Shown: positions 1,883 to 64,000 of the stretch, piece by piece | How the letters are laid out: each line of letters begins with the position of its first letter | Position numbering within the stretch: position 1 is the stretch's first letter | DNA from: a virus | DNA: 64,000 nt | Reading direction: 5' to 3' (one strand) | IMG/VR virus record: IMGVR_UViG_3300031576_000024 | Coordinates: 18,992-82,991 of that record | The notes under the pieces: model-generated | What the model was told of the DNA's origin: nothing | The model's input: the letters and a program-made list of their open reading frames with translations, nothing else | Database searches by the model: none | Made by a program: the position numbers and the translations under genes

Positions 1883-2074
1883 ATGTATATAGCAACTTAT
1901 GAAACTAGTCAAGGTAATGGGTTCGTAAAGAAGTTTACATCTAGAGTTAAAGCTAATAAATGGTTAAAACAGATGCATTTCGCCTATACCGCTTTGAATG
2001 CTGATGAATTTGAAAAAGACTTTAAAGAGTGGAAATCATATGGAACATTCACAGCTAAGGTATGGAAAGTATAG
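1883..2074 (+). CDS. small hypothetical protein
   Basis: 63 aa, begins one base after the RecA-like stop and overlaps the Mre11-like start by 13 bases. The sequence is charged and aromatic, with a KFTSRVKANKWLKQMHF stretch. No family is recognised. Its tight packing inside the recombination operon supports it being real. Confidence 0.6.
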   Translation: MYIATYETSQGNGFVKKFTSRVKANKWLKQMHFAYTALNADEFEKDFKEWKSYGTFTAKVWKV

Positions 2075-3505: not shown

Positions 3506-5366
3506 AGCCAGCAACATATTCAGTCTGGGACATGTGGAAGTAAACCTTAAAGACAGAGGTTTAATTCTTGTTACAGGGCATTCTTTAGATGAAGGATCAA
3601 GTAACGGTTCTGGTAAGTCAAGTATCGCTAACAAAGCAATACTGTGGTGTTTGTATGGGTACACAGCAGGTGGATTGAAAGCGGACGACATTCTCAATCG
3701 ACACGGCGACACGAAGACTGGTTGGGGCAAGATCGACTTTGAAGGATCTGATGGAAGCCTGTATGCTGTCCACAGGGCGCGACCTGCCAAATTGGACTTC
3801 TATAAGGATGGCGTCTGCTACAGCATGAAGAAGGCCGCGGAGACGCAGGCGCTCATTGACCACGCTCTAGGGCTGGATTTCAAGTCCTTCTTACATACAT
3901 ATATGTTTGGTCAGGGTCGTTTGTTTTCCTACGCATCACTGCCTCCGGCAGACCAAAAGGCGATCTTAGAGCAGATACTTCCTGTTGAGCAATTGGCTGT
4001 ATGGGTTGACTACGCTAAGACCTGTGTGTCAGATTTGCACACTGCTGAGGCAGCTCTAGCTTCTAAAGGTGCGATTTTACAAAGTGAAATCAATACCCAG
4101 AAGAATAACTGGCAGCAGGTTCAAGACAAGGCTATTCATTGGAATACGTTGCGTGAAAATAAGCTCAAAGACTCTCTTAACGACATTGCCGTACATAAGG
4201 AAGTGCTAGCAGAACGCGACTCCAGGCTGGTTGTCTTAAAAGACAGACTTGCTAAACTGCCTGATATTGCTCAGGAAATCCGAAACATCGACACTAAACT
4301 TGAGTCTCTTAACTCAGAGATCAATGATTGCCAATCCAAGATGCATCTTCTGGAAGAACGTAAGAGTCAATGGGACGGTGTGCGTTTATCGTCAAGTGCT
4401 AAGATGCACAAGATAGTCGATAGTAACTGTCCTACTTGCCATCGCGCCATTACTGACGAAGCTGTGAAGAACAAGCTGCTGGCCGATAACGTCATGCACT
4501 CCGAGAAGATGGCGGAGGCCGCCGTGAACATGGCTACATGCGCGACCATGTATCATACGGTTTCAGGTGAGCGCGGAGATAAAATTGATAAGTCACAAGA
4601 GCTATTCAGAGCCAAGATGGAACTAGAGGTTGTACGAAAAGAAGATACGCACTTTAGAGTGCAGATCGCAGAGTTGACAGCCCTGGAGAACAACGAAGAG
4701 AAGTACACGAAGCGGGCTGAGCAAATCGCCTCCGAGCGTAATCCATTCTTCGATCTAGTAGCGTCGTTCGATAAGGGCATATCTGAACTGCTAGTGAAGC
4801 AGGCTCCGCTTGAAGAACATAGATATAAGGTCAGCCGTGAGATTGAACATATCAATCACTGGCTCAAGGTCTTCGGTCATGATATAAGAATCAAACTGTT
4901 CGAGTCCGTGTGCAACTATCTGGACACACAGACCAACGAATATCTTAAGCAATTAAAGAACCCGTGGCTGAGGGTTCAGTTCAGTACGATTAAGAAGCTC
5001 GCCTCTGGGGAGGTGAAAGAAGACTTTAACGTTCGAGTATTCTCGGAGAAGGGCGGTGAAGGCTTTGAGACATTATCTGGAGGCGAGCAACAGATTGTAT
5101 CCTTTGCTATTGGGAAAGCATTAGGTGATCTTTCCAAAGCACAGACAAAGGGTAGCTCTGAGTTAACCATTTTGGATGAACCCTTTACAATGCTGGATTC
5201 TAGAAACTGTGAAGCTTTAGTTGAATTTCTTACAAAAGAAAAAGGTACTATCCTACTAATCAGTAACGATGAAAACCTAGCCAACTTAATTCCTGATAGA
5301 ATTCATGTGATTAAAGAAAACGGAGTTACAAGAATTTCAAATGCCGTCTATCAGACTTTTAACTAA
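3486..5366 (+). CDS. Rad50/SbcC-like ATPase subunit (T4 gp46 type)
   Basis: 626 aa SMC-like protein: Walker A SSNGSGKSS (about 38-46), long coiled coils, a central zinc hook CPTCHR near residue 315, the ABC signature LSGGEQQIVSF and Walker B LTILDEPF followed by D-loop MLD. It is short for Rad50 but typical for phage gp46. It acts with the Mre11-like nuclease at DNA ends. The GTG start at 3486 lies inside the HNH gene (20-base overlap), so the insertion seems to have kept or rebuilt its start region. Confidence 0.93.
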   Translation: MKLLKLEASNIFSLGHVEVNLKDRGLILVTGHSLDEGSSNGSGKSSIANKAILWCLYGYTAGGLKADDILNRHGDTKTGWGKIDFEGSDGSLYAVHRARPAKLDFYKDGVCYSMKKAAETQALIDHALGLDFKSFLHTYMFGQGRLFSYASLPPADQKAILEQILPVEQLAVWVDYAKTCVSDLHTAEAALASKGAILQSEINTQKNNWQQVQDKAIHWNTLRENKLKDSLNDIAVHKEVLAERDSRLVVLKDRLAKLPDIAQEIRNIDTKLESLNSEINDCQSKMHLLEERKSQWDGVRLSSSAKMHKIVDSNCPTCHRAITDEAVKNKLLADNVMHSEKMAEAAVNMATCATMYHTVSGERGDKIDKSQELFRAKMELEVVRKEDTHFRVQIAELTALENNEEKYTKRAEQIASERNPFFDLVASFDKGISELLVKQAPLEEHRYKVSREIEHINHWLKVFGHDIRIKLFESVCNYLDTQTNEYLKQLKNPWLRVQFSTIKKLASGEVKEDFNVRVFSEKGGEGFETLSGGEQQIVSFAIGKALGDLSKAQTKGSSELTILDEPFTMLDSRNCEALVEFLTKEKGTILLISNDENLANLIPDRIHVIKENGVTRISNAVYQTFN

Positions 5367-12378: not shown

Positions 12379-15300
12379 TAGAACGGGTAAATGGACGGAG
12401 CCTGGATCGGAAACCGAATCCGAGTTCGTAAATGCTATTACGGCTCAGTCAAGTGACGGGCAGGAAGTTGCACTTACTCCCGACGTGGTGGCTAAGATCG
12501 AGGCTGCCATCCGTTCCAACGTTGGTGACAACAAAAACGTTGGCCGGCTCAACACACTTTCCTACTCCACCTTAGCTAGTGTAGTTAATAGTCCTGGGCA
12601 TGTAAGCGTTGTCATCCCTATCTACGGCGCTCTCAATCTAGTTAAGAAGGCCATTGAGTCTGTATTCAAACATACCTATTGGCCCTTTGAGCTTATCCTA
12701 GTTGACGACTGTTCTCCTGATCCTGCTGTCCGTGACTACCTTAAGACGCTGGAAGGTCAGAACAAGTCTGACAAGTGCATAGGATTGAAGGTTATCTGCA
12801 ACAAGAAGAACAAGGGCTTCGCTGCCACCTGTAACATCGGCATGAACGTCGGCACGGGTAAGTATTTCTGCGTTCTCAATTCGGACGTTCTAGTTACTCC
12901 CTACTGGTTAACCAAAATGGTTACTGCCGTAGAGGCTGATAAGTCACATGTCATTGTTAATCCGGTAACCAATAATACGGCCCTGATTAACGTGCAGATG
13001 GAACCTGGTAGATCGTATCTGGATATGAACCGTGCGCTCGAACGTAAATCACCTAAGAACTATCCTGAGATTATGCCTACCGGCTTCTGCTTGTTCTTCA
13101 AGCGTAGTCTCTTAGAAAGGATAGGAGGGTTCGATGAAGCCTACGTTTCCTACGGGGAGGATACGCACTTCTGGTTCCAATCTCTTAAGCTCACCTCTGA
13201 TAGCGGTGAGTACCTTGGCAACAAAGCTGTCATGGCTGACGATTGTTACATCTTCCATGAACGTAGCAGCAGCTTCAATCAAGTAAGTTCAGATGAACAT
13301 ATGGGCCTTCGGCGTTCTGGCTCGGAGCGTTTCCACAAGCTAAATCCTTCTTATGCAGACTGGAAGAATGGCTACAATGTTAACAAGGTCATGTCAGAGA
13401 TCCGCTCCAAGACACCCGACTCACTGTTTGACCACGATTACAAGTACAATTGCGTTTGGGTTGTAAAATCAGCCGACTTCTGCGGTGGTATGAAGTACAT
13501 AGCAGACATTGTAAATGAGCTAATTGAGCAGAATGTCAACGCTAAGGTTTGTGTTATCAAGAACACTCCTGACGCTCCTGAGAATGTCCTCAATGATCTA
13601 CATACTGCGCCTATCTTCTTTAAGGATGCAGAAGACTTTGTAACTAACTTCTCCACGCGCTGCTTTACCAACGGTGTCGTAATTGCCGCTGTATCTGAAC
13701 TTGTGTCGCCCGTAGGCATCCTTTGTCAGCGCATACAAAGTCTTACTCCTATTCATCACATTCAGTCATACGATCCTGAGCTTACTGCCATTCCTGAGTT
13801 AGCCGCAGAGCAAGCTCAAGCATATGGAAAGCTACGTTATTCCATATCGTCAAGTAACTGGATCACTGAACATCTACAGAAGGAAGGCGTTAAAAACATC
13901 ATCTTCACTACTCAACCGGGCGTTGATACGGACCTATTCCATCATGGCGACCGAAGCCGTGGCGACGATAGGTTTACCGTGATGATAGCTTTGAACGCTC
14001 AATATCCTTTCAAGGGTGCTGAGCGCGGCATTGAGGTTGCCAAAGAGATTATCAAGCGGGACAAAAATATCCGCGTCCTAGGATTGGGTATGGACTTCAT
14101 TCCCGATTGTCCGGCCATTGTAGGACTCGGTAAATTGTCACAAGGACGCTTGGCGCACCTCCTACGCACTGAGGTAGATGTGTTTATAGATCCAAGCTAC
14201 ATTCACAGTTACGGCATGCCTAGTTTGGAAGCTCTTGCTTGTGGCGTTGAAGTTGTCTGCTGGAATAACCGAGGCATTGGTGAGTACGCGAGCAATAAGT
14301 TTAACGGCGTTCATATCTTCATGCAGAACGTGATACCCGAAGAACTAGCCGATAGGTGTCTAAAGATTAAGGAGAATAAGTCCGCAGTCACTCTAGTTCC
14401 CTTATCAAGAGAAGACAGTGTTAATAGCTTCACTAATCACTTTGAAATAAACTTAGGTCTGGTACCATTCAAGAAACGGATTACTGTAGTCACCCCTCAC
14501 GCACGCAAACACGGTGGCCCGACTACGATCATTAATTTCGCTAACGTCTTGGGTTACTTGGGACACGATGCGCGCCTAGTATCAATCTATGACGATTTCA
14601 ACAATGAAGTAATAAGCTTCAAGCAAGTTCCGCTATTCATAGGCGTTGATTACATTAAAGAGTCTGACATGGTTGTTATCAACTCTGATAATCCGTTCAT
14701 TGAGCAGATTGTCAATCAGCCTTCACTTAAACATGCCAAGAAGGTACTTCTAAAGCTCAGCCACAATCCTCGCTTTAAGGCCATAGAAGAAGCTAGCTTG
14801 CGCATGCCCATATGGGATAAGATACTTTGTTCCACAGAGCATCTACGTGAGAAGTGTATCAATCCTATGCCTGATTGGCGTCACATTGCGTGGAGCCCCG
14901 ATAAGGTTCAAACTATCGGCTGGTATCATTACACGTTCCCTGTGTTCAACGCTCCCCCGGAGACGAGACAGTACGGGGTCATTGACAAGCAGATGCGTAT
15001 TGGGTATCTTATGCACGACCATCCCACAAAGGGGACGACGTTCGCCAATGCCATCGTCAAGGCTCTTAAGAACAAGTATGGCGCTAACGTAGACATCGTG
15101 ACCGTTGGTGAGGTAGCGCTTAAGTATAAGCCGCCGTGGATGACTTACGTGTTCAAACCTAACCGCCCTGAAATGGCACAGGTAATGAAGCAGTGCGATA
15201 TCTGGTTGGGAAGCTCCTTCAACGAAGGACTAGGACGTATGACACTGGAAGCTATGGCAGCGGGTTGCGCTATCGTAACTACCGACACTGGTGCAGAATT

Positions 15301-17575: not shown

Positions 17576-18480
17576 TGAAGATACTACTTGCTAAACATCT
17601 ATGGGACTACGAAGGTACGCCTATCGCTACCTACGCTACATCCCTGTCCAGAGCTTTCACACAGGCTGGACACGAAGTCACAGAGATAGATAAGCAGATC
17701 ATCCTAGATGATAGCGTTTACAGGGCACACGATCTTCTGTTCGATATTGACTGCGGTAAGGATATGAAGGGGGATCAGAAGTTTCACCTTTGCCATCCTA
17801 AGATCCAGTCCCTAATTAAGACTGTCTTCTTTGCAATAGACTCGCACGGAAATGCTGATATGCACCAACGACTGTCACGCTCCGCAGACTATGTATTCTT
17901 TGCTATATGGGATAAGCGCGACCTGTTCGCCGACCATCCTTCAGCTACTTGGACTCCAAGTTTCACGGATCTTGCTTACTTCGACGGTGAAACGTTTACC
18001 TCGGAGAAGACAAAGGACTTCTGCTTCCTAGGCTCCCTTGGCGGGCTTGATAGAGCAGATCCTATGGTGAAAGCGTGCAAAGACAATAACTGGACTTTCG
18101 ACGTGGATGAAGTAGGCCGTAAGGGAAAGCACACATGGCCCAGGACCGCTGAGCGCATGGGTGCTTGCAGGTTCGGGTTCAACCACGGACAGAAGCACGA
18201 CGGACCTAACCTGCGTACTATAGAGACGATGGCTATGAAGTTGCCGCTTATCTGCGACCAAGACACGCGAGACGGCAAAGGTTTCCTCTTCGAGCCTTGG
18301 CAGCACTACATTCCCTACAAGGCGTATTCGTATGAGGGACTGCTGGAGCGCATGCAGTGGTGCATGACAAACCCCGATAAGGCTGCTAAGATTGCCAAGC
18401 AAGCATATGATGAAGTGTGCCTAAACCACCTGGCCTCGCACCGCGTACAGACTATACTGGAGGTAGTATGCAAATCCTGA
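17575..18480 (+). CDS. GT-B glycosyltransferase, CgeB-like
   Basis: 301 aa. MKILLAKHLWDYEGTPIATY starts an N-terminal Rossmann half; the C-terminal half has GPNLRTIETMAMKLPLICD and DQDTRDG with FEPWQHYIPY, matching the CgeB-type or GT4 sugar-nucleotide site. Substrate unknown. Stop overlaps the next gene. Confidence 0.75.
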   Translation: MKILLAKHLWDYEGTPIATYATSLSRAFTQAGHEVTEIDKQIILDDSVYRAHDLLFDIDCGKDMKGDQKFHLCHPKIQSLIKTVFFAIDSHGNADMHQRLSRSADYVFFAIWDKRDLFADHPSATWTPSFTDLAYFDGETFTSEKTKDFCFLGSLGGLDRADPMVKACKDNNWTFDVDEVGRKGKHTWPRTAERMGACRFGFNHGQKHDGPNLRTIETMAMKLPLICDQDTRDGKGFLFEPWQHYIPYKAYSYEGLLERMQWCMTNPDKAAKIAKQAYDEVCLNHLASHRVQTILEVVCKS

Positions 18481-19220
18481 TGTTCACACCTGCCCACAAG
18501 GATGAGTTCATAGCCAAGGCCAAGACCATGAAGAAGCGTTACCCTGAAGTAACTATTGTCTATGATCTAGAAGACGGTGTGCCCGCGACAGAGAAGAAGC
18601 GGGCCTTTGAGAACGTGAAGAAGCACGCCCGTACAAAGGATTGGGTTCGCATTGACGACAACATGACATATGAGTTATACGACCTACCTACCGTACAAGC
18701 CATAGTCATTCCTAAAGTCACGCCTTACGTACTTGACCGTTACGTCGATATGGACGGTCGAAACAGCTTTGGCTGTGATAGAGTAATCGCTCTCATTGAA
18801 ACTGCTGCTGGCGTTGACGCTGCTAGTTACATTGCCGAGAAGGCTGGCGGTGTCATATTTGGGCAATATGATTTCATATTATCAATGAATTCCGAACTAC
18901 ACACTGACTACGCTAGATCACGGATCTTGAATGCATGCAAGGCTGCTGGCATTCCTGTGTATGACAGCCCTGACTACTCCCTGGACTTAAACACGATCAT
19001 GCATAACGCTAGGCAGGCGTACTGCCTAGGCTTTGACGGCATGGCAGTTCTACATCCTGACCATATCAAGATCGTGAAGGAAAACTTTAGAGCGCCTTAC
19101 AACCAGAGAGTATGGGCGAAGGGTATCTTGAAGAACGCTGGAGACGGACTGACTGTCTTCCAGAACACAATCATCGGCCCGCCCATAGTTAAGCGTGCCA
19201 AGCAAATACTACAGAAATGA
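18468..19220 (+). CDS. HpcH/HpaI aldolase / CitE-like lyase
   Basis: 250 aa from ATG 18468 (GGAGG four bases upstream). MFTPAHKDEFIAKA, VYDLEDGVPATEKK, VIPKVTPY, ALIETAAGV and GQYDF follow the TIM-barrel CitE/HpcH pattern, including the acidic metal ligands (DLEDG and IET). Family members cleave or form C-C bonds in acyl-CoA or 2-oxo acids. Rare in phage genomes; here inside a glycosyltransferase island next to a sugar dehydrogenase, so it may make or trim an unusual sugar or acyl group. Confidence 0.82.
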   Translation: MQILMFTPAHKDEFIAKAKTMKKRYPEVTIVYDLEDGVPATEKKRAFENVKKHARTKDWVRIDDNMTYELYDLPTVQAIVIPKVTPYVLDRYVDMDGRNSFGCDRVIALIETAAGVDAASYIAEKAGGVIFGQYDFILSMNSELHTDYARSRILNACKAAGIPVYDSPDYSLDLNTIMHNARQAYCLGFDGMAVLHPDHIKIVKENFRAPYNQRVWAKGILKNAGDGLTVFQNTIIGPPIVKRAKQILQK

Positions 19221-30395: not shown

Positions 30396-33383
30396 CTACC
30401 CCTGTCCAGCCACATTTGCACCCACTACGATGCCGGGCGCAGGGTGTACATTTAGGTACACTCTCAGACCTTGGAATACAGCGTTCTTACCTAGCTCACT
30501 ATGGGTGATAGTAAACCTAATGTATTCGCCTCCGCTTAGTCCCTGTGGGCGGTATCTCTGAATGCTACTTCCGGCCGGGAAGGCGAAAGTAAACGTTTGG
30601 GAATCCCGTACTGTTTGAGATAGGGCCGATCCGTCAGCCGTCTCTACCAGCACTGTCCAGTTGTGTGCCTCTCCATCCTCTTCCCTGGCCCGTAGCTCGA
30701 CGTAAGAGGGTGATACCCGTCCTGTGACACCCTCGAATTCTGCGCCTAGGCTACCGGCTCTGATCCAGCCCGTTTGCATTTGCATTGTGACCGCCGAGGC
30801 CGCACCAGCGGCATTCGTGTAGTTGTCAGAATCTTGGTTGAAAAACTCGTACAACATCCCGTCGTTCCCGCCGACAAAGAGGTGATAGTCCCCGTTCGCA
30901 TCTTCCATTTCTTCTGCACAGAGTAACTCCACTCCACTAGGCGGACTAAAGGTCCACCACCAACCATTACGAATATCATCATTTCCACCGTACTGATATA
31001 CTAGATACGTTGTGTACACGTTATCGTCATCCGGTATGGCAAATAACATTACGCTACGCCCTAGACTATGTACGGACCATATATGCTCAAGGTTTGTACG
31101 CTCGAAGTCATCAAACTTGTCCCGGATTATGTCCGTGATCTTATTCGTGTCTCTAAGGTCGAATAGTCTTACGCCGTCGCGGTCAGTCGCCCACCCATGC
31201 AGACGCGATTCCCCGCACGCGCGGAAGCCAAGGTTTCCCATACCCTTGCGTACCTTATCCACAAAGTAGTCAGGGTTATCACCCATGACACGCCAATAGT
31301 CTGTGCCTGTTGTAACGATAAGGCCAAGGCTGGTTTCATAGATACCAGTAATAGGAGTATCTAACTCGAATCCGTTGATTACCGGATACGACTCAGGCTC
31401 GTCATCGCTACTGTAGTATAGAACGTTAGGATTAAGCGGATCACCAGCCATGAACACTGTGCGCTTCCAAACCTTCATCATAGCGGCGAAGGGAGGTGGA
31501 CTATTATCGTTGAACTGTCCAAGTTCAGGCGGTGTCGAAACACCTAACTCTGTGTCTGCAATAGTGTCATTGAATGTCGTAGTAACGTTGTCATTAATTG
31601 TACCTACGAACAGGTATTCTGAACCGCCGGCTACCGTTCTGTAAATCTTACGAGCTACAACGGCAGGATCTACAGAAACAGGAATGCTTGATAAAGCAAT
31701 CGTTGAATACTTGCTCTCATCGACAATACGAAGATTGTCTATTCTTATATTAGCCGCTGTAACTAAAGTATCAATAAATGTAAACGTGTACTTAATGAAG
31801 TTGAGATTAGTTATAGACGGATCACCTACTTCATTATCAGGAGTATCAAGATCCATAGTAAGAGTAGTGAACCCATTTTCTTCAAGTTCATCTCTATCAA
31901 AGAAGTATTCAAATGCGTTACTAAATGAAGCGTCGTCGCCTATTTGAATCTTAAGGGCATTAGGGTCAAGATTAACCCGAGTACCAGTAGGAATTGAAAT
32001 GTCAACAAATACTTGACCACTTTTAGCTTCTGTGAAATTTGCTTGAGAGAAAGCAGACGCGGCTGCATTTACAAGGGTTGTTGTGAGTGTACCGGCAGTG
32101 TGAGTTATAACTACCGAGTGAGTACCTTGAGTTCTTGTTGTGCTGAATGCTACAGCAGCTCCACCTGCTTGAGTATAAGTAGTGCCGTCATCGTCATAGT
32201 TGTCAATGACGATTGTTACCTGTTCAGCTATTAGTGTTAAGTCAGCATCTATTGACGCGGGGCCGCTATTACTTTCCGTCCCGTACTCGTTTACGAACGT
32301 GATTTTGTAATTCCAAATCGACGTTTCCGAAGGTACGAATGTAGTACCTGCCGTTGAGAATGCGGGCGTAAGTGTGCCTCTGTCCAGAGACACAAGATGA
32401 TCCCAATAGAGATCAACCTCGGCCGCTGTACCAGTGGCATTAAATAACGCCTCAAAGCGGTAAGAAATTACAGCGCTTTCAACTAAATTCCCGCCTGATG
32501 TACCAGTATTACCAGTAGGAACAGCCGAGAAGTCGAATACTAATGTGTTCCACCCAGGACCGACTTCACCGACTCGGAAATCGTACCTGTGGAAGTTGTT
32601 ACCTAGCGTAGCATCAGACCCAAAATAGACCGAGATTGCACGGCCTGATGTTGCCAGATTACGAAACTCATCCTGAGGAATGTAAATACGGAGTTCGCCG
32701 CGGTCTTCAATTGTAGTATCAAAAGCTGAAGCCGACGTATTAAGTAGCTCAAAATAGCAAGAGGCTTGCCCAGCAGTCTTAAGCATCTTGATTGAATTAT
32801 CTTTGTAGGCAATAATTTCTTCAAGTGAAATCGTACAACCAGAGATACCAAAGCTACCTGTGCCTTCAAATCCTTGGACGATCGTTTCTTGACTACCTGG
32901 AGCAATGACGCCCCAATTTGACGTGCGATAGCCGTCATATTTGAAAAATGTGCCACGGCGGCCTCCTTTGAAGGGGTCTTGTGCAGTTACTAACATAAGA
33001 CGGTCGAAGTTACCATGAGAGCGGAAAAGCTTATTAGGCTGACCCGTAAGCATCGAAGTTGTCGTGCCGTCCGTATTAATCTTACGGACTGTCGTACCTA
33101 GCTGTGCTATTACGCTGCGGAGAATCTGTCCTGAGAAGTCTTGGCTCTTGTAAAACCCGATCCAAGACGTAGGCTTAGCCGCACCGCTTTCTGTGTAGAT
33201 GGCAGCTAACTTTCGACTGTTACCACGCATCTTCTGTAGTGAGCCGAATTCATAATAGAAATCGACATTCTGACATACAACTAGTTGATTGTGTTCCAAC
33301 AGGTCTGGATTCAACTTGGTGGCTAAACCCTGGAAATTCAACATGTCTATCGTCGGCTTTGTATTACGATCAGGCGAGGCCAT
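30396..33383 (-). CDS. tail nozzle-like protein (T7 gp12 / tail tubular B analogue)
   Basis: 995 aa, beta-rich. The N-terminus (NQLVVCQNVDFYYEFGSL then KMRGNSRK) matches the opening seen in nozzle or tail-tubular-B proteins, where genes list N.D....G.L..RPG. Blades with YRTVAGGSEYLFVGTI and Asp-rich loops follow. Two inserted jelly-roll-like segments (about 170-320 and 400-560) resemble carbohydrate-binding domains. Immediately downstream of the adaptor, as in T7. Confidence 0.72.
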   Translation of the reverse strand: MASPDRNTKPTIDMLNFQGLATKLNPDLLEHNQLVVCQNVDFYYEFGSLQKMRGNSRKLAAIYTESGAAKPTSWIGFYKSQDFSGQILRSVIAQLGTTVRKINTDGTTTSMLTGQPNKLFRSHGNFDRLMLVTAQDPFKGGRRGTFFKYDGYRTSNWGVIAPGSQETIVQGFEGTGSFGISGCTISLEEIIAYKDNSIKMLKTAGQASCYFELLNTSASAFDTTIEDRGELRIYIPQDEFRNLATSGRAISVYFGSDATLGNNFHRYDFRVGEVGPGWNTLVFDFSAVPTGNTGTSGGNLVESAVISYRFEALFNATGTAAEVDLYWDHLVSLDRGTLTPAFSTAGTTFVPSETSIWNYKITFVNEYGTESNSGPASIDADLTLIAEQVTIVIDNYDDDGTTYTQAGGAAVAFSTTRTQGTHSVVITHTAGTLTTTLVNAAASAFSQANFTEAKSGQVFVDISIPTGTRVNLDPNALKIQIGDDASFSNAFEYFFDRDELEENGFTTLTMDLDTPDNEVGDPSITNLNFIKYTFTFIDTLVTAANIRIDNLRIVDESKYSTIALSSIPVSVDPAVVARKIYRTVAGGSEYLFVGTINDNVTTTFNDTIADTELGVSTPPELGQFNDNSPPPFAAMMKVWKRTVFMAGDPLNPNVLYYSSDDEPESYPVINGFELDTPITGIYETSLGLIVTTGTDYWRVMGDNPDYFVDKVRKGMGNLGFRACGESRLHGWATDRDGVRLFDLRDTNKITDIIRDKFDDFERTNLEHIWSVHSLGRSVMLFAIPDDDNVYTTYLVYQYGGNDDIRNGWWWTFSPPSGVELLCAEEMEDANGDYHLFVGGNDGMLYEFFNQDSDNYTNAAGAASAVTMQMQTGWIRAGSLGAEFEGVTGRVSPSYVELRAREEDGEAHNWTVLVETADGSALSQTVRDSQTFTFAFPAGSSIQRYRPQGLSGGEYIRFTITHSELGKNAVFQGLRVYLNVHPAPGIVVGANVAGQG

Positions 33384-34072
33384 TATGCGTCTCCGTAATT
33401 ACCACAGAAAGGTACTACTGCGCTCTGACTGGTTATGCGCCCATCCACGTACCTCTCCCACTTGATCTCAAACTCTGATCTAAGTCTGAGAATTGTTTTG
33501 ACTACCCCGTTCTCCTGCATCAACTCTGTATCGAGCCCGGCAACAACCGTGTCGTAAACCAGAAGTGAGGCGAACGTTAGCGGGAAGTCAGCATGGAGAG
33601 TATCACCACCGGCTGTCAACCTAGCAGGCAACCCGTAATACTCAATCCGTAGGGCATCTATATCGTCATCATTAGGAGCAGGCTCTAGTACAAAGCCTGA
33701 TCCGATAGGACGATAGTTAGGTAGGTAGTTGTCCCCGCTTGCGCTGGGGGTTGGATTAACACCTTCATGCCGTTCATATCTCTGAATAGGAAACGTAGAG
33801 CCATCATCCCTAACCATCTCTAGCTTGATTAGTCTTTCAAACCCAGGCGGCCAAGGATATCTTGATTGGCTTGCTACAAGGTCTGTGACAGCTACGTCGG
33901 TGAAATAGCCTTCGTGCGCGATAACTAGTTCGTTACAACGCATGCGGTACTGGTCGTTAAACAACTCCTTCAGCAAGTCATCTGTGTGATAACTCGCCGA
34001 AGCAGTTACTTCGTGGAGCATGCGGCGGACACGTTGTATGTAGCCCGAAAATGTTTCACTTGATTGGGCCAT
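33383..34072 (-). CDS. tail adaptor protein (T7 gp11 / tail tubular A analogue)
   Basis: 229 aa. Helical N-terminus (YIQRVRRMLHEVTASASYHT), a beta middle with YPWPPGFERLIKLEMV, and FPLTFASLLVYDTVVAGLDT near the C-terminus. Length and position between capsid and nozzle genes fit the portal-to-nozzle adaptor ring. Confidence 0.7.
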   Translation of the reverse strand: MAQSSETFSGYIQRVRRMLHEVTASASYHTDDLLKELFNDQYRMRCNELVIAHEGYFTDVAVTDLVASQSRYPWPPGFERLIKLEMVRDDGSTFPIQRYERHEGVNPTPSASGDNYLPNYRPIGSGFVLEPAPNDDDIDALRIEYYGLPARLTAGGDTLHADFPLTFASLLVYDTVVAGLDTELMQENGVVKTILRLRSEFEIKWERYVDGRITSQSAVVPFCGNYGDA

Positions 34073-38625: not shown

Positions 38626-38655
38626 CCTTATTTCTGTGCTATAAGCTATGTTAGC

Positions 38656-39033
38656 TTATAGAAGTTCGACATCCATTACAGAGTCGCCTTCAGCTACGAA
38701 CGATAGTTCGCTTGTAGAGCTAGCGTCTTGGAATACACCGCTTGTTGTTAGCACTTCAAACACATAGAATTGCTGTGCTGAAGCTGAGTAAACGGCTGTT
38801 CTAACAACAGTGTTGCCGTGTTCCTCTACTACCTTCAGAGAAATATGGTCGATAGTCGATAGTCCTACGTCAGCGGGCGTCAGGCGTTCACCTTCGCCCG
38901 GGCTTCCGCCGGCCGCTGCTGTTAAGGTGATACGACCTACTGTTCTCGTCTTTCCCTGTACCGGAACACCACCTGCGGTGCGCCCTGCGCCGGGAATCCA
39001 TTGCTTAAATGTCGGTTTAACTGTTCTTGCCAT
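38656..39033 (-). CDS. small beta-rich virion-block protein
   Basis: 125 aa. MARTVKPTFKQWIPGAGRTA start, then strand-rich sequence (GRITLTAAAGG, HISLKVVEEHGNTVV, QQFYVFEVLTT). Downstream of the capsid gene together with two similar-sized proteins of like composition. Decoration or tail-joining role possible. Confidence 0.58.
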   Translation of the reverse strand: MARTVKPTFKQWIPGAGRTAGGVPVQGKTRTVGRITLTAAAGGSPGEGERLTPADVGLSTIDHISLKVVEEHGNTVVRTAVYSASAQQFYVFEVLTTSGVFQDASSTSELSFVAEGDSVMDVELL

Positions 39034-39760: not shown

Positions 39761-40366
39761 TTACTCCTTTATTGAAAAGCCTGTTTTACCATGTTTTATC
39801 TTAGAAACATGTGTTTGGTGTACACCAAATCTTTTTGCTATATCAGTAACTCTGTCACCGTTAGACAAAGCCTGTTTTATATCTAATAACCTTTGTTTGA
39901 TTTCTAGCGGAACATCTCTCCTTTGACAAGTTGACATATTCTGTCTCGCTACACCTGATATCTTTCTACCAAGCTGTGCTTGACTTTGCTTTAATTTAGC
40001 CTCTAAAGATCGCTTCTTACCTTTATTAGCTTTAGAAATCTTCTGTCTAACTAACTCAGGCATACTATCATGAGATAGGTTACCTTTACTTAGTATATTA
40101 TATCCAAATGGACTTAATGAATTAAATCGCTTAATCAATTCTTCCTCCATAGCATTTGCTGTGTCAGAGGAACAATGTGATGTGTAAATTACTACTAATT
40201 TATCAAGACCATGTTTATTAATAGCATTAGTCAATAAATAACCTCTGCCACAATTAGCATTATACACATGTCTTGAAATACGATCTAACGGGTATTTTGT
40301 AGTTTGACCTACATAATGTTTACCGTTCATCGTATTCTTTATAACGTATAGTGAACGATCCGTCAT
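39761..40366 (-). CDS. GIY-YIG homing endonuclease with NUMOD3/HTH C-terminus
   Basis: 201 aa. GIY-YIG core LYVIKNTMNGKHYVGQTTK (GIY replaced by LYV), EEELIKRFN with the catalytic-type Glu; then LVRQKISKANKGKKRS and KLKQSQAQLGRK as NUMOD3-like DNA-binding repeats and a C-terminal HTH (DRVTDIAKRFGVHQTHVSKI). I-TevI-like. AT-rich and inserted between two late genes with short overlaps. Confidence 0.88.
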   Translation of the reverse strand: MTDRSLYVIKNTMNGKHYVGQTTKYPLDRISRHVYNANCGRGYLLTNAINKHGLDKLVVIYTSHCSSDTANAMEEELIKRFNSLSPFGYNILSKGNLSHDSMPELVRQKISKANKGKKRSLEAKLKQSQAQLGRKISGVARQNMSTCQRRDVPLEIKQRLLDIKQALSNGDRVTDIAKRFGVHQTHVSKIKHGKTGFSIKE

Positions 40367-40557
40367 CGGTTAGCATGCACGCTTATTAGGCATTCCACAA
40401 GACCAAGGGCTACAGAAACAGTGAAGCCGTCGTCAGTTTTATTCTGCCACGGCGTTAATCTTACATGAACACCTAACGCTATACCAGCATTAGCTCGTAC
40501 CGTTAGTTTCCAAAATTCAAAAAACTCTAACGAGCCAATTGCTGACAAGAAGTTCAT
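40363..40557 (-). CDS. small hypothetical protein
   Basis: 64 aa, aromatic and hydrophobic (FWKLTVRANAGIALGVHVRL). Four-base overlaps with the GIY-YIG gene and its upstream neighbour make it likely real. Function unknown. Confidence 0.5.
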   Translation of the reverse strand: MNFLSAIGSLEFFEFWKLTVRANAGIALGVHVRLTPWQNKTDDGFTVSVALGLVECLISVHANR

Positions 40558-48141: not shown

Positions 48142-50357
48142 TATTTACCTGCCGGTGATGGACGTGCTTGTTTAGTTTTAATTTCCATTTGTAGCATCTT
48201 TTCTTGCATCGCAAGAGCTTGACTTTCGCGTGCCTTTATTTGGTCAGCATATAACTTGATGAGTTGAAGTAACAACAGTTGTTGTTTCTGATCTAAATCC
48301 CAAAATGATTCAGATTGTTTCTCTTGCACTAGCATGGTATGAAAAATATAAGGATCGTCTTCGATGAAAGGTATAATCAGCTCAAACTTACTTTGCTTCA
48401 ATAGACTTACCATCTTCTTAACACGATCAATTTGCGGCCCCTGAGGAGTCAGCGCCTTAGCAAACCCTAGCTCTTCTACGATGGCTTGTCTTAGACCAAC
48501 ATCGGGAATTTGCATTAAAGCAGGAGCGTACTGTAGGAATTCAAGTACCTTGGCTTCTCTAGCTTCCTTGCTTACAAGGGCTAGAGAAACCGTATCAACA
48601 CGTACTTGTACGTTATCGCTAAGGTCTGTACCACTAAAGGTCTGAACCGTCATTCGACTTGTCTTCTCACGCGCGAGCACGCTCAGGCGCTCGGCATAGC
48701 GAGCATCGTTACGAACGTGTTTGATAGTTTCCATTAGAAGCGCTGAACCTTCATCTTGCAGTGATTCATCCCATGCTTGTAGAATAGGAGAACGACTCAT
48801 AAGGGCTTGCTTACGAAGTACGTCCAACATCATTGCGCTGTTGACGCCGACCGGCCGTTCACCATGAAGGATAGATTCTGTGCCTGCCATGCTCTCCATT
48901 TCAGCAATTTGCAGGGCACGTTCATCCATCGCTGCCGATGGGAACGGCGGAGGGTAAACCGGCTCGGGCTTAGCGTTGGCAGTACGGCGAGGATCGTATT
49001 GCCAAACGCCACCAGGTCTACCCGTCCACTGATCTTCAACGGGCGCTGTACCCTTCGGAACAATCCATGTTGCGATAGGTACTGTGCGCCGCCACATAAT
49101 CAGGGCGGTGTCAATAGCGTTAACTCTCTTTAGCTTCGGAAGAAGCTTAGATACTAGGGATCTACCAAAGATTGATCCAGGCTGACCTTCCCAGCGGAAT
49201 CTTGTATAGGGATGCCAGCGCTTAGGCCATCTGGGGTCAAATGCTCTAGCTCCGATTTCCTTAGGGCTGTCATAGATAACAGAGTCCCCAACAGAAATGA
49301 TAGTACGACCCTTAGGCCACTTTGCATTAGGCTTACGATCAAATACACGAACGATGGCGTAGCCATCCCATTGATCGGGAGAGCCTATGTAAATGTTCGG
49401 ACCAGGGCCTTCAACTAGCTCTGAGATACGTTCCCACCACCATAAAGGTAGGGAGTATGGATTCTCAGACTTAATGTCTTCAAGGTTATCTAAGTGCCAT
49501 CCTTTTGTCTTTGTCATCCCTGCCTTGTTACGCGGAGGTGTTAGGTACTTGTCCTTGATTGTGTCAATGTGAGCATATGTCTCACGCATAACCCAGCCCA
49601 TGCCAAATTCCTGATCGTGCCACCAGTGAGTGCTAGGCATGTGCATTTCAAACGGAGATATAATATTAGCTACTACATCACCGTAGTCAATACGGTCCTT
49701 AAGCTTCGGCCTACCTTGCTCATCAGTTATTGTAATTTGACGTTCGATGCGCTTAGGCTTAACGAACCCGCCTTGTATTTCACCTGCTATAGCACCTTCA
49801 GTCTTAGTTTCAGGCACTAACAGGTAACGAGGTTTGGTAGGATCATAAGCTACTTCCATCCAGCATGTGCCGCAGTACAGAAGAAGTCTTGCAATTTCCC
49901 GATGCTTCTCAGGCATCTCCAACATTTCCCACAGGAATTCTAGAGTCAACTCTGAGAGGTTGGCAGCCTGTATGTCTTCGTCCCTATCACTCTTAGGCGT
50001 CACACGCGGGCGTGGGCGGTTCTCAGTAAGTAGGGCTATGTTCGTTTCGATGTACCTGCCCAGCAAATCGTTCGTCGGCTTAGGAATGTTCCTAGCCGTG
50101 TCCTGTACTACAGATAGATCACCTGAGTTACTTTGAGCAATCCTGGAAATAAGTAGATCGTCGTGGTATTGCCTGCCTTGACCGAAAAAAATGTTCTCTA
50201 TGTATTTTACTGACCGCATCCAATGGAGACTTTGCCGTTGCCGGCTAATGCTGTCACTGTAAGTCTTTAGCGCTGACCCGAGTTCGGTAGCGCCATTAGG
50301 AACATCGTCGATCGCGTGCATCTGGCCCCTGAGCCAACTATTACGGTAATCAACCAT
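48141..50357 (-). CDS. portal protein
   Basis: 738 aa. Typical portal features: NIPKPTNDLLGRYIETNIAL, RPRVTPKSDRDEDIQAANL, LLYCGTCWMEVAYDPTK near the N-terminal third, GQPGSIFGRSLVSKLLPKLK in the middle and a C-terminal Gln-rich helix. Forms the dodecameric vertex through which DNA is packaged and ejected. Immediately flanked on both sides by homing endonucleases. Confidence 0.85.
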   Translation of the reverse strand: MVDYRNSWLRGQMHAIDDVPNGATELGSALKTYSDSISRQRQSLHWMRSVKYIENIFFGQGRQYHDDLLISRIAQSNSGDLSVVQDTARNIPKPTNDLLGRYIETNIALLTENRPRPRVTPKSDRDEDIQAANLSELTLEFLWEMLEMPEKHREIARLLLYCGTCWMEVAYDPTKPRYLLVPETKTEGAIAGEIQGGFVKPKRIERQITITDEQGRPKLKDRIDYGDVVANIISPFEMHMPSTHWWHDQEFGMGWVMRETYAHIDTIKDKYLTPPRNKAGMTKTKGWHLDNLEDIKSENPYSLPLWWWERISELVEGPGPNIYIGSPDQWDGYAIVRVFDRKPNAKWPKGRTIISVGDSVIYDSPKEIGARAFDPRWPKRWHPYTRFRWEGQPGSIFGRSLVSKLLPKLKRVNAIDTALIMWRRTVPIATWIVPKGTAPVEDQWTGRPGGVWQYDPRRTANAKPEPVYPPPFPSAAMDERALQIAEMESMAGTESILHGERPVGVNSAMMLDVLRKQALMSRSPILQAWDESLQDEGSALLMETIKHVRNDARYAERLSVLAREKTSRMTVQTFSGTDLSDNVQVRVDTVSLALVSKEAREAKVLEFLQYAPALMQIPDVGLRQAIVEELGFAKALTPQGPQIDRVKKMVSLLKQSKFELIIPFIEDDPYIFHTMLVQEKQSESFWDLDQKQQLLLLQLIKLYADQIKARESQALAMQEKMLQMEIKTKQARPSPAGK

Positions 50358-57748: not shown

Positions 57749-57758
57749 TAATTATACC
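57749..57758 (-). promoter_or_regulatory. probable late promoter GGTATAATTA (leftward)
   Basis: Minus strand GAATATGGTATAATTACA, 45 bases before the 100-aa gene. Back-to-back with the rightward copy at 57809, separated by 50 bases. Confidence 0.6.
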
Positions 57759-57808
57759 ATATTCAAATCACTTCAAGTAAACATATCACATGTCGGCCAA
57801 AGATTAAG

Positions 57809-57818
57809 GTATAATTAA
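57809..57818 (+). promoter_or_regulatory. probable promoter GGTATAATTA (rightward)
   Basis: AAAGATTAAGGTATAATTAAG, before GGGAGAGG and the HNH gene at 57856. Matches the site at 30352 over 19 bases. Confidence 0.6.
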
Positions 57819-57855: not shown

Positions 57856-58353
57856 ATGCACTACAAAGATATTTCAGGACAAAGATTTGGCAAATTAATT
57901 GCTGTATCATATGCGTACAATAAACGTTATGCTTACTGGCATTGTATGTGTGACTGTGGAAATACAGCCGTAATAAGAAGTGATACATTAAAGAATGGTA
58001 ATACTGAGTCATGCGGTTGCTTAGCTAAAGAGTGGACACAGACAGGTAAGATGAACCGTAAACATGGTATGCGTAAACATACTATTTACAAAGCCTGGAT
58101 TGCAATGAAACAGCGGTGTAATAATCCAAAGAATAAATCTTATAAAGATTACGGAGGACGCGGTATTAAAGTCTGTGACCGATGGTTAGAATCATTTGAT
58201 AACTTTAGAGATGACATGTTTCCTACGTGGCAAGAAAGTTTAACATTAGACCGAGTTAACAACGATGGCAACTATGAACCCGGTAATGTTAAGTGGTCAA
58301 CATGGAAGGAACAAGGCAATAACAGAAGGTCAAAGACATGCATGACTTCATAA
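57856..58353 (+). CDS. YGGRG-type HNH homing endonuclease-like, copy H, with N-terminal zinc finger
   Basis: 165 aa. N-terminal part GQRFGKLIAVSYAYNKRYAY and CMCDCGNTAVIR ... ESCGC is a four-Cys zinc unit absent from the other copies; then [32 protein letters not shown] and NNRR. No C-terminal AP2-like tail. Overlaps the integrase start by 16 bases. Confidence 0.82.
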   Translation: MHYKDISGQRFGKLIAVSYAYNKRYAYWHCMCDCGNTAVIRSDTLKNGNTESCGCLAKEWTQTGKMNRKHGMRKHTIYKAWIAMKQRCNNPKNKSYKDYGGRGIKVCDRWLESFDNFRDDMFPTWQESLTLDRVNNDGNYEPGNVKWSTWKEQGNNRRSKTCMTS

Positions 58354-60600: not shown

Positions 60601-61730
60601 AGTGGCACGTAAACCGCTTTCCAGCTAAACCTGCACCTAAGTTATCTCCACCAAATCGGCAAAATACCTGGGCACTCATGATAGACCCCGGGGGGCAATG
60701 CTCCCGCTGGGGGCCACCCCCCCTCGAACTTGCCTGTTAGTTGCCTATCCCTATCATTACAGTGCATCTAGGGTACAGTAACACGCAACTAGGTAGGCTA
60801 ACCCATTGATATTGCTAGACTTGCGCATTCCATGCGCATATGTTGCGTGTTTATTTAATCATGGGATTAAATAGTCAATATGTCCGCTCACTTAACCCAT
60901 CTTTTACCTATAAACATCACAATAACTGCACACTAATAGACCCATGTTGCCTGTTAGTTGCTCCGCAACAATCTGCACTACTGTACTCTACCCAACCTGT
61001 CCTGCACACCCCTGCCCACCGTATGCGCATCAAACGTGCAATTAACCAGCAACTAGGATAGTTGCTTATTGTCTGCCTGTTATCTGCTAGCTATTTGCAT
61101 ACGCAATTGATGTGCAACTAAACGGCAAGTATGATGATTGCGTATTAGTTGCCTATTATATGCTGGTTAATTGCATGTGCAATATGCGCTCTCTTGACCG
61201 TACACTGTGCAGAGTCGGAGTTGCCTATTCATGTACCCTAATTTGCTAGCATCTTCCTATTAGTTGCTAGCATTCTGCGCATTGTGATCCCGGCGGGGAA
61301 TCACACTCTGGATTCTTTAATGAATTCGCAGAGTTATAATGTTTGTTGCGCATTACTTGCGTGGTCATTGCGTGCTTACTTACCCTCTACTGCTTACAGA
61401 TTGCTAGCATGTTGCACTAGGTCATTGTGCAACTATCCTCCTAACCAGAGCGTATCCATTACGTTATTCGTCAGACTCACTGTAGCCTGCCCTGCTAACG
61501 TTATGCCTTGCCCCGCCCTGTACCAGCGCCTTGTAGCCGATCGTCGATCCTGGAGCATCCTAGAACGTGGCCGAATTTCGTCAATGATTCCGCATACTTA
61601 GCTCGTGTCATGCACACTCCTGAATAACTCAATGAATTCGCATAGTTGCGAGCTTAGTTGCCTACTTGTTAATGTTTGTCGCTCCCTATCTCTTATATAG
61701 GTTTTCGTCCCCGGGGGGGCGGCAATAATG
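60601..61730. repeat. 1.1-kb gene-free, short-repeat-rich region
   Basis: No convincing gene on either strand. Many variants of TTAGTTGCCTATT and TTGCTAGCA: TTGCCTGTTAGTTGC is exact at 60730 and 60947; TTAGTTGCCTA at 61145 and 61654; AGTTGCCTATT at 61147 and 61219; inverted forms such as GCAACTAGG at 60782 and 61050. AATGAATTCGCA occurs at 61319 and 61632. Flanked by CCCCGGGGGG (60686) and CCCCGGGGGGG (61709). Candidate replication origin, partition-like iteron array or genome-end region. Confidence 0.75.
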
Positions 61731-61817
61731 ACAATTTCGTCATGTTCAAAAAAAAGCGTCACCCTTTCCCCTGTTGGGTCACTCACCCTTGACGATACAC
61801 TTTCAACGGGAGCTAAA

Positions 61818-61967
61818 ATGTATACTCAGGTCCAATTCAGCTACCGCAAAGGGCGTAAGGTTACGTATCTTTGCACGTTCATGCGAGACGGTTCGGTAGA
61901 GTTTCTACCGATTTCCGCGAAGGTCGCTGCGCGCCTTATCAAGCGCGGCATGGGATCGGGGAGCTAA
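61818..61967 (+). CDS. small early protein
   Basis: 49 aa from ATG 61818 (GGGAGC upstream); a longer frame open from 61728 crosses promoter-like sequence. MYTQVQFSYRKGRKVTYLCT, basic. A candidate promoter TTGGGT-16-TACACT lies at 61774-61801. First gene of a GC-richer early-type module. Confidence 0.6.
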   Translation: MYTQVQFSYRKGRKVTYLCTFMRDGSVEFLPISAKVAARLIKRGMGSGS

Positions 61968-61968
61968 C

Positions 61969-62091
61969 GTGGACGACGTAACTTGGGAGCTACTGTGCGA
62001 AGCGGATCGACTAGCATCGGAAGTGCCGCTATGCGCGGAAACGATTGCGCTTGTCGATGCACTCGTTTCAGGAATCTGCGAGGATTTCTAG
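61969..62091 (+). CDS. 40-aa acidic early protein
   Basis: Read by hand from GTG 61969: starts VDDVTWELLCEADRLASEV, ends GICEDF. Acidic and helical, with three Cys. One base after the previous stop. Size and charge suit a host-factor inhibitor, but this is only a style argument. Confidence 0.5.
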   Translation: MDDVTWELLCEADRLASEVPLCAETIALVDALVSGICEDF

Positions 62092-62093
62092 CC

Positions 62094-62136
62094 TTGACGA
62101 ATAGGTTAGGGTTGCTAACCTTAGCCTATCGGTCAA
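62094..62136 (+). promoter_or_regulatory. long hairpin between early genes (1)
   Basis: TTGAC...GTCAA outer stem, then ATAGGTTAGGGTT / AACCTTAGCCTAT (13 bp with G-T pairs) and a GCT loop. No T-run; an RNA-processing site or operator fits better than a terminator. Confidence 0.65.
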
Positions 62137-62161
62137 CGTTAGCTTACCTAAAGGTAACATC

Positions 62162-62515
62162 ATGCGCGATTCTGTGACACTGGAAAAACTAGGCTTCTCT
62201 TTCGGGATGCTGAATGGGACCGCAGGCTATGTCAAGCTATATCCCCAGGGTTCGCTGGTAATCGTGCCGCGTACTCGCAAGGGATGGGACGCAATGTCCC
62301 CGAGACGTTCCAGGGTTCGCAAAGGCGTCCTAGTGTCGCTAGGTTGTCATAAGGGCGGAAAGGCTTTCCGAAAGTGGCTCCTATCCCTTGACGCAATCGC
62401 GCGGATTCCCGCATCTTGGATATGGAAGGATGATTCCACGGGATCGCTGAATTCCTCGCAAGGTGCGCGCATCGTAAAGCGCTTGCATTGGAAGGGTGGG
62501 CCGCATGCTCGCTAG
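62162..62515 (+). CDS. basic early protein
   Basis: 117 aa, Arg/Lys/Ser-rich (SPRRSRVRKGVLVSLG, GGKAFRKWLLSLDAIARI). No family recognised. Stop is followed by a TGTGAC/GTCACA inverted repeat and a good promoter. Confidence 0.6.
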   Translation: MRDSVTLEKLGFSFGMLNGTAGYVKLYPQGSLVIVPRTRKGWDAMSPRRSRVRKGVLVSLGCHKGGKAFRKWLLSLDAIARIPASWIWKDDSTGSLNSSQGARIVKRLHWKGGPHAR

Positions 62516-62562
62516 TGTGACCGAAACGTCACATTTGACACTTTCTTAGATTCTGGTACACT
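62516..62562 (+). promoter_or_regulatory. host sigma70-type promoter with operator-like repeat
   Basis: TTGACA (62535) - 16 bp - TACACT (62557), with TGG just before the -10. The perfect inverted repeat TGTGAC-CGAAAC-GTCACA (62516-62533) lies immediately upstream, resembling a regulator site. Confidence 0.75.
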
Positions 62563-62628
62563 CACTCAATAGACGCCGCTTGAATGTTTCAATCGGCACT
62601 AACTCAAGAAAAGGATAAGGTTAACATC

Positions 62629-62976
62629 ATGGCAAAGAATACGACTACGACGACTTCGACCGTCAAGCCTCGCGGCGGTAGGAGTGGCAAGGCTCGCGAG
62701 CGGCGTTCATTCTGGAGCCGCGCGCTTCAGGCTCCGAAGGTTCAGGAGGCTCTGACTTCGCTGAACGTGTCGGAGGCCGCTTTCGAGAAGGCTTACAACT
62801 CCACCCGAAAGATGCGCGAGCGAGGCGAGATTTCCGAGGCGCAAGTTGCGGCACTCAAGGGTTTTTCGGAGCATCGCAACCTTCGGAAGCTTGCCGAGGC
62901 AATCGGCAAGTCGGATATCACGGCGGCGAATCTGCTCGCGCGTGGTATCGAGTCGGGACTCGTGAAGCTTGCCTAA
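62629..62976 (+). CDS. early protein with helical C-terminal domain
   Basis: 115 aa from ATG 62629 (AAGGATAAGG upstream); a start at 62584 is less likely. Thr-rich basic N-terminus, then KVQEALTSLNVSEAAFEKAY and LRKLAEAIGKSDITAANLLA, an HTH-like bundle. Strong promoter upstream suggests high early expression. Confidence 0.65.
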   Translation: MAKNTTTTTSTVKPRGGRSGKARERRSFWSRALQAPKVQEALTSLNVSEAAFEKAYNSTRKMRERGEISEAQVAALKGFSEHRNLRKLAEAIGKSDITAANLLARGIESGLVKLA

Positions 62977-62987
62977 CTCTGGTTAGG

Positions 62988-63032
62988 TGAAACCGATTAG
63001 CCTAGGTTGTGAGCCTAGGCTAATACGTTTCA
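62988..63032 (+). promoter_or_regulatory. long hairpin between early genes (2)
   Basis: TGAAAC-CG-ATTAGCCTAGG / CCTAGGCTAAT-AC-GTTTCA around a 7-base loop (TTGTGAG): an 11-bp perfect inner stem plus 6 more pairs beyond a 2-base mismatch. Confidence 0.75.
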
Positions 63033-63053
63033 ATTAACTAGAAAGGTTTGACA

Positions 63054-63233
63054 ATGATTACGCTGCACGACGATGTTTCGGATGCGTACAGGGTCGCACA
63101 AAAGTACGCTCCTGCGCTTTTGAACGCGGTAGTCTATCAGAATGCGAGCGCATTCTTTTGGGCCGCGCTCTCGGATGGTAAGATGCGAGCGGCTGAGTTG
63201 TCACTCTCGCGACTCGCTGATATGGGCAGATAA
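63054..63233 (+). CDS. small early protein
   Basis: 59 aa from ATG 63054 (GAAAGG upstream). Helical, MITLHDDVSDAYRVAQKYAP. Placed between two long hairpins. Function unknown. Confidence 0.6.
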   Translation: MITLHDDVSDAYRVAQKYAPALLNAVVYQNASAFFWAALSDGKMRAAELSLSRLADMGR

Positions 63234-63245
63234 GAACCTTTGGAG

Positions 63246-63324
63246 TTAGCTAAGATTGAATAGGTTAGGTTCGTGCCCAATTGCACGGTAATATAACCTT
63301 CCTAATCTATTCAATCTTAGCTAA
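63246..63324 (+). promoter_or_regulatory. very long hairpin between early genes (3)
   Basis: Arms TTAGCTAAGATTGAATAG with TTAGG extension at 63246 and its complement ending at 63324: about 24 bp with one G-T pair, plus an apical CGTGC-CCAATT-GCACG stem. Resembles an RNase III target more than a terminator. Confidence 0.85.
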
Positions 63325-63338
63325 ACAAGGAATAGGTC

Positions 63339-63764
63339 ATGAAATCTATTAATATCAGAGCATTCAAGGCTTTTAAGTATAAGGCCCACGGTATTGATAG
63401 TGTGTTCTATACCTTGAAATGGAAAGGTAATAGAGTCGGGCTTAAGCTATTCCAGAGCCCGAGTGAGTGTAATAAAATCCGACGCTTTCAAGTTAAGGGA
63501 TTCAGGGGCGGTGTAGCTCCTGCTGTGTTGGGTGCTACGTTTAAGGTGATAGCTACGAATGGTAGCGCGTTCGGGTACGGATACCTAACTGAGATAGCGG
63601 ACGTAGATTCGCGTAGGATCTATAAGAAAGAAGTTTACGAACCCTTGTGTGAATTGTTTAACAAGGTATTTGGTTTCTACCATACTGACTTTCACGAAGG
63701 TAACGTAGGTTACGTTGAAGTAGGTAATCAGAAGCGTCTAGTATATGTAGACTTCGGGTTTTAA
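63339..63764 (+). CDS. minimal protein kinase-like protein
   Basis: 141 aa. VGLKLFQ gives a candidate ATP-binding Lys36, SPSEC a possible helix-C Glu43, HTDFHEGNVG the catalytic-loop H-x-D-x4-N (His115, Asp117, Asn122) and YVDFG the metal-binding DFG (138-140), one residue before the stop. The activation segment and C-lobe are missing, making it far shorter than T7 gp0.7-type kinases. AGGAAT ribosome site. May phosphorylate host proteins or be a degenerate regulator. Confidence 0.78.
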   Translation: MKSINIRAFKAFKYKAHGIDSVFYTLKWKGNRVGLKLFQSPSECNKIRRFQVKGFRGGVAPAVLGATFKVIATNGSAFGYGYLTEIADVDSRRIYKKEVYEPLCELFNKVFGFYHTDFHEGNVGYVEVGNQKRLVYVDFGF

Positions 63765-63811
63765 GTATGACTAAGAAAGACTTGATCCGTGTATAAGGTA
63801 AACGAACGACG

Positions 63812-64000
63812 ATGAATAAACTATATTCTGTATGGCTACAGCGTAATAAGCTACGTGCCGAGGGCAATAAGCTACATGCCGAAGGCTATAAGTTATATGC
63901 CGAAGGCTATAAGCTACGTGCCGAAGGCGAGAAGCTACATGCCGAAGGCTATAAGTTATATGCCGAGGGCGAGAAGTTATATGCCGATGGCGAGAAGCTA
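63812..64000 (+). CDS. heptapeptide-repeat protein (3' end outside window)
   Basis: Starts MNKLYSVWLQR, then seven tandem 7-residue units of the form xKLxAEG (NKLRAEG, NKLHAEG, YKLYAEG, YKLRAEG, EKLHAEG, YKLYAEG, EKLYADG) and the beginning of an eighth, encoded by 21-bp repeats with codon variation. Runs off the window. Likely an extended helical rod; similar repeats occur in phage early regions. Function unknown. Confidence 0.82.
   Translation, partial: MNKLYSVWLQRNKLRAEGNKLHAEGYKLYAEGYKLRAEGEKLHAEGYKLYAEGEKLYADGEKL

Follow-up and report, generated by a model that had tools for sequence, protein, structure and literature searches.

At the right end of a phage contig, small genes read in one direction are separated by long inverted repeats. 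The question raised by this locus is whether these repeats act as RNA, in the manner of the intergenic hairpins at which RNase III cuts the early mRNAs of T7, or whether they have some other role. The window analyzed here, a stretch of 64,000 nucleotides, represents bases 18,992-82,991 of an 82,991-bp IMG/VR contig; because its right end is also the end of the contig, the early module is truncated. Our preferred reading, to which we assign a probability of roughly 55%, is that the three hairpins of this module (HP1, HP2 and HP3) would be signals for the RNase III-type processing, or the protection, of the mRNA of an early operon, and functional analogs of the T7 sites.

The phage and its small-gene block

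The contig derives from an undescribed, integrase-carrying, tailed phage. It encodes a portal, a major head protein and a tyrosine integrase, as well as a DnaB-type helicase, a separate primase and a DNA polymerase A. The structural genes, between about 57.7 and 21.5 kb, are read leftward, and both the integrase block and the small-gene module with its hairpins are read rightward. A search for the T7-type single-subunit RNA polymerase (PF00940), in which T7 itself matched at about 1e-109, detected none in the contig, which may be incomplete, or in three relatives. An earlier note had described the locus as a T7-like early module, and as a statement about the kind of phage this label is not sustained. 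Judged by its integrase, its DnaB-type helicase with separate primase, the absence of a T7-type RNA polymerase and the possession of a separate GGTATAATTA motif that precedes other operons, the phage is not T7-like. Related prophages that would point to a host were sought and none was found, and the window gave no matches to Rfam families or tRNAs. HNH homing-endonuclease-like genes (44-68% identical) are present at 57856-58353 and in at least eight other places on the contig, many of them between structural genes. In the locus L005, a 708-aa ORF resembling a sugar-nucleotide epimerase (1973-4099) seems, from its translation only, to be split by an intein with a Cys start and an HN-C end.

The block itself consists of five small gene units on the + strand and the four gaps between them, three of which hold a hairpin and the fourth a promoter. 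Its first two ORFs, e1 (61818-61967, 49 aa) and e2 (61969-62091, 40 aa, GTG start), are small orphans with no family match, and e3 (62162-62515, 117 aa), e4 (62629-62976, 115 aa, predicted to be all-helical at pLDDT 63) and e5 (63054-63233, 59 aa) are likewise orphans; no relatives of e1-e5 appeared in any search run. Searches for e3, e4 and e6 in viral contigs, for e4 and e6 in phages and for e4 in plasmids and genomes found no relatives. The product of e6 (63339-63764, 141 aa) resembles a kinase C-lobe and matches Pfam ABC1 (PF03109) at 24.2 bits against a cut-off of 22.9 (E 2e-5). It carries the catalytic loop HTDFHEGN, of the kinase type HxDxxxxN, and the DFG motif as VDFGF, and is confined to the C-lobe. 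Structure models of e6 (pLDDT 36) and e4 were of too low quality for a fold search. The last ORF, e7 (63812-64000), encodes a coiled KLxAEG repeat protein that extends past the contig end; its 21-bp tandem unit, which encodes KLxAEG, occupies 63846-64000 and continues off the contig. The G+C content of the small-gene block (61701-63240) is 0.50-0.55 as against 0.44 for the contig, and relatives with 0.53 exist; the block may have been acquired from a relative of similar composition. The earlier note had proposed the orphans as host-takeover genes, which for small early orphans is a reasonable guess.

Three intergenic hairpins

All three hairpins lie on the + strand. HP1 (62088-62142) has a 13-bp apical stem with a 3-nt loop, followed by a 2x2 internal loop, 5 bp, a 1x1 mismatch and a further 5 bp. 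HP2 (62978-63042) repeats this arrangement with lower segments of 6 and 9 bp, and HP3 (63246-63324) is a 24-bp stem, including one G-U pair, that encloses a structured loop of 31 nt. Each is fitted closely between genes: the 5' edge of HP1 lies within the e2 stop codon and its 3' edge 19 nt upstream of the next start, and HP2 begins 2 nt past the preceding stop and finishes 11 nt short of the next start, the corresponding distances for HP3 being 13 and 14 nt. Neither the HP2 nor the HP3 stem takes in the Shine-Dalgarno sequence (SD) of the gene that follows (e5 and e6, respectively), and the SD downstream of HP1 falls in a separate weak hairpin rather than in the HP1 stem.

When the whole contig of 82,991 bp was scanned for gapless stem-loops, HP1, HP2 and HP3 came out as the top three, and three shuffled contigs together gave one match at threshold. 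When internal loops were allowed, GC-corrected sliding-window RNA folding of the + strand ranked HP3 first, HP2 second and HP1 ninth. Compared with dinucleotide shuffles the z values were -4.5 (HP1), -7.6 (HP2) and -7.7 (HP3), and all three beat 200 shuffles. These results bear out what the earlier note had reported of the repeats, namely that there are three, that all are intergenic, that they have TTAGG/TAGG cores in common and that no T-run follows them, which holds on either strand. The TAGG/TTAGG cores recur, and HP1 and HP3 contain identical copies of GAATAGGTTAGG. The quoted cores are real but understate the repeats, whose arms measure 24-31 nt; the spacing between arms is 3, 3 and 31 nt in HP1, HP2 and HP3, respectively.

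HP1 and HP2 build one architecture from differing sequences. None of their 13 apical pairs is broken, despite two-sided changes at four and one-sided changes at three, and their stem identity of 15/26 exceeds a null mean of 6.8 obtained with reshuffled pairs (P 0.008). In the MAFFT alignment of the hairpins, HP2 is shifted by one column relative to its base pairs. For each hairpin, the coding strand gives a more stable fold than the complementary one (HP1 -32.1 vs -22.7 kcal/mol, HP2 -35.9 vs -30.3, HP3 -39.9 vs -37.1), and a hand count of non-Watson-Crick positions across the hairpins gave seven G-U pairs against one A-C mismatch. Since the coding strand folds better and G-U pairs outnumber A-C mismatches, RNA made in the direction of the genes is favored, and this strand bias, although suggestive rather than decisive, points to the hairpins being transcribed in that direction. 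The hairpins are real, and from such features we consider that they are probably functional RNA punctuation.

Promoters in and near the block

The gap without a long hairpin contains a sigma70-type host promoter, TTGACA-16-TACACT (62535-62562, + strand), with an extended -10 (TGG) in which TG precedes the -10. Directly upstream of the -35 is an operator-like palindrome of 18 bp, TGTGAC-N6-GTCACA (TGTGACCGAAACGTCACA, 62516-62533), so that both elements proposed earlier for 62516-62562 are present. Just past the predicted transcription start, a small 5'-UTR hairpin (62575-62597, + strand) comprises 4 bp, a 1x1 mismatch, 5 bp and a 3-nt loop; the 85 nt around it reach a z of only -1.2. No promoter was found in the 5' arm of HP2 or HP3, and that of HP1 has a weak candidate with a poor -10.

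The GGTATAATTA motif occurs seven times, near gene starts; two of its copies, at 57.75/57.81 kb, form a divergent pair. The small-gene block contains none. The block therefore appears to use a different, host-type class of promoter, which supports its assignment as early. Early expression, as the earlier note had proposed, is thus plausible in view of the host-type promoter, the lack of GGTATAATTA in the block and the density of TTGACA promoters in the equivalent block of a relative, G008.

Divergent pairs of promoter-like motifs, GGTATAATTA here and ACGGTATTATCTAATAGAGG in relatives, form long inverted repeats that typically stand beside the integrase gene. They are located at 57749-57818 in the window and, in relatives, at 14708-14813 (G003), 4392-4497 (G007), 18416-18525 and 31962-32047 (G008), and 33921-34043 and 49930-50013 (G009). 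Single copies of either motif also occur elsewhere, near gene starts where checked. The long inverted repeats of G003, G007, G008 and G009 were considered as HP-like elements and rejected, since most are divergent pairs of a promoter motif that is present in single copies as well.

A related phage with a similar hairpin

A search with the portal recovered nine IMG/VR relatives of 56-69% identity. G008 (IMG/VR 3300031949_000061, 48 kb; portal about 57% identical) shares with the window an iteron-like non-coding region that precedes the module at 60601-61800 and has the repeats GCAACTA, GCTAGCA and ATGCGCA. The shared repeats lie around GTGCAACTATCCTCCTAACCCATTGATATTG, in G008 at 35.7-37.0 kb (L024 15700-17000), and look like replication iterons or a partition site. 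Next in G008 comes a block of tiny genes on the + strand, in which seven promoters with an exact TTGACA lie within 10 kb, compared with two on the same strand in the other 38 kb.

Within that block, a hairpin at 38642-38683 agrees with HP1 at 19 of the first 21 positions (P 0.001, with reshuffled stems as the null). On this sequence match it is homologous to HP1, while the flanking proteins are unrecognizable; no recognizable homologues of e1-e7 were found in G008. A second hairpin (40334-40462) has arms of 26 nt and ends at an SD, its 3' arm pairing with the SD GAAGGGAG. The inter-arm spacing is 6 and 77 nt, and in both G008 hairpins the 5' arm is itself a sigma70 promoter, so RNA started there would be without the duplex. 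The palindrome in G008 would accordingly have a role at the DNA level, or would fold in read-through RNA only.

The stretches examined of the other portal relatives contained no HP-like hairpins. An IMG/VR scan for CTTGACNAATAGGNTAGG gave 20 matches, of which only that of G008 has a long hairpin; the others lie outside long hairpins, are apparently unrelated and were rejected as HP1 homologues. A strong inverted repeat in G011 was also discarded, being inside a coding gene.

Alternative explanations

The G008 hairpins raise a rival account, that of read-through silencing of the T4 gene e or homing-endonuclease type, in which RNA arriving from upstream folds and hides or crowds the next ribosome-binding site (RBS), so that translation of the gene is confined to transcripts from a promoter of its own, located within or past the 5' arm. 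The hairpin at 40334-40462 in G008 has just this design, the HP1 5' arm is similar in sequence to that of G008, and T4 precedents are on record (PMC2988022). The hairpins of T4 gene e and soc, of homing-endonuclease genes and of Aeromonas phage 25 seg43(25) are, like those described here, very stable and just 5' of the RBS of a phage gene; the G008 hairpins are alike also in having the promoter inside. The reviewed seg43(25) hairpin abuts its RBS without hiding it (PMC2988022). The window differs in that the RBSs of e5 and e6 are not sequestered, HP2 and HP3 have no evident promoter and the -10 in HP1 is poor. An SD paired in the stem is found in G008 at 40334 and in none of HP1-HP3. We consider silencing a possible but unlikely explanation of the window hairpins.

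A more speculative proposal would connect the two phages: early promoters and long hairpins may evolve from one another within this lineage. The promoters of the window would have decayed and the hairpins been kept as pure RNA processing sites, and in relatives, where the promoter lies in the 5' arm, only read-through RNA would carry the duplex and be cut or silenced, with RNA from the local promoter being spared.

It is rather improbable that the repeats are DNA operators, that is, long palindromes, in or close to early promoters, to which a phage repressor binds. The recurrent TAGG/TTAGG cores, the overlap of the G008 palindromes with promoters and the operator-like palindrome at the window promoter are consistent with such a role; however, the inter-arm spacing is variable in both phages, the arms far exceed the length of a half-site, the wobble pairs favor one strand, and HP2 and HP3 have no evident promoter. 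Transcription terminators or attenuators that end early transcripts between genes would also place strong stems at gene ends, but this phage has classical T-run terminators elsewhere (two examples, both on the - strand, are near 38.6 and 40.9 kb) and HP1-HP3 are unlike these, which makes termination a doubtful candidate indeed. Least probable are mobile hairpin repeats (MITE- or REP-like) with no role in the operon, for although HP1, HP2 and HP3 are related in sequence, the contig holds no further copies, all three occupy early intergenic gaps, and compensatory changes preserve their pairing.

Proposed mechanism

The preferred reading, RNase III-type processing or protection, draws on features of the sequence: the hairpins and their intergenic placement, their RNA-like architecture, the class of promoter, and the fact that a relative has kept one of the hairpins. 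The early operon would be read rightward by host RNA polymerase, and transcription through the hairpins would allow all three to form in the polycistronic mRNA, where they would serve as punctuation. Host RNase III, a double-strand-specific RNase, would most likely cut in or near the long stems. Cleavage would give every small gene a separate 5' end and release its ribosome-binding site, and the remaining stem could shield the 3' end of the preceding gene. If this is true, an environmental phage lineage that carries an integrase and is unrelated to T7 independently evolved the T7 strategy of punctuation by RNase III hairpins, and such hairpins could be landmarks for early host-directed orphan genes that are invisible to sequence similarity.

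Comparison with T7 and RNase III sites

The product of T7 gene 0.7 is a kinase, and e6 is likewise kinase-type; this is a parallel and not homology. T7 itself is unrelated to the window phage, which lacks its RNA polymerase. E. coli RNase III requires a stem of only about 12 bp, and no strong consensus is seen among the sites it cuts (PMC8708148). The uninterrupted 13 bp of HP1 and HP2 and the 24 bp of HP3 reach this length, and because so little is needed, cleavage of HP1-HP3 is plausible.

The T7 early gaps were folded from V01146. R1.3 forms a 13-bp stem with a 3-nt loop and a short lower stem (-26 kcal/mol over 89 nt), as do HP1 and HP2, and the R0.5 and R1.1 folds resemble it. Like R0.5, R1, R1.1 and R1.3, the hairpins of the window are coding-strand structures that separate small co-directional early genes, lack a T-run and end shortly upstream of the next SD or start. 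The T7 core AAGGUC...GGCCUU is absent from HP1-HP3, which are more stable than the T7 sites (-28, -35 and -39 kcal/mol), HP3 being a 24-bp duplex. The internal loop of R1.1 is asymmetric (4/5; PMC6121014), whereas the 2x2 and 1x1 loops of HP1 and HP2 are symmetric and HP3 has none, so that cleavage of both strands is possible. The description of the hairpins as T7-like therefore fails at the level of sequence and of the asymmetric loop, and stands for punctuation-like hairpins, as shown by their RNA-type architecture, transcribed-strand wobble pairs, lack of T-runs and resemblance to R1.3. By this comparison HP1-HP3 appear to resemble the T7 early processing sites in their working while not being homologous to them in sequence.
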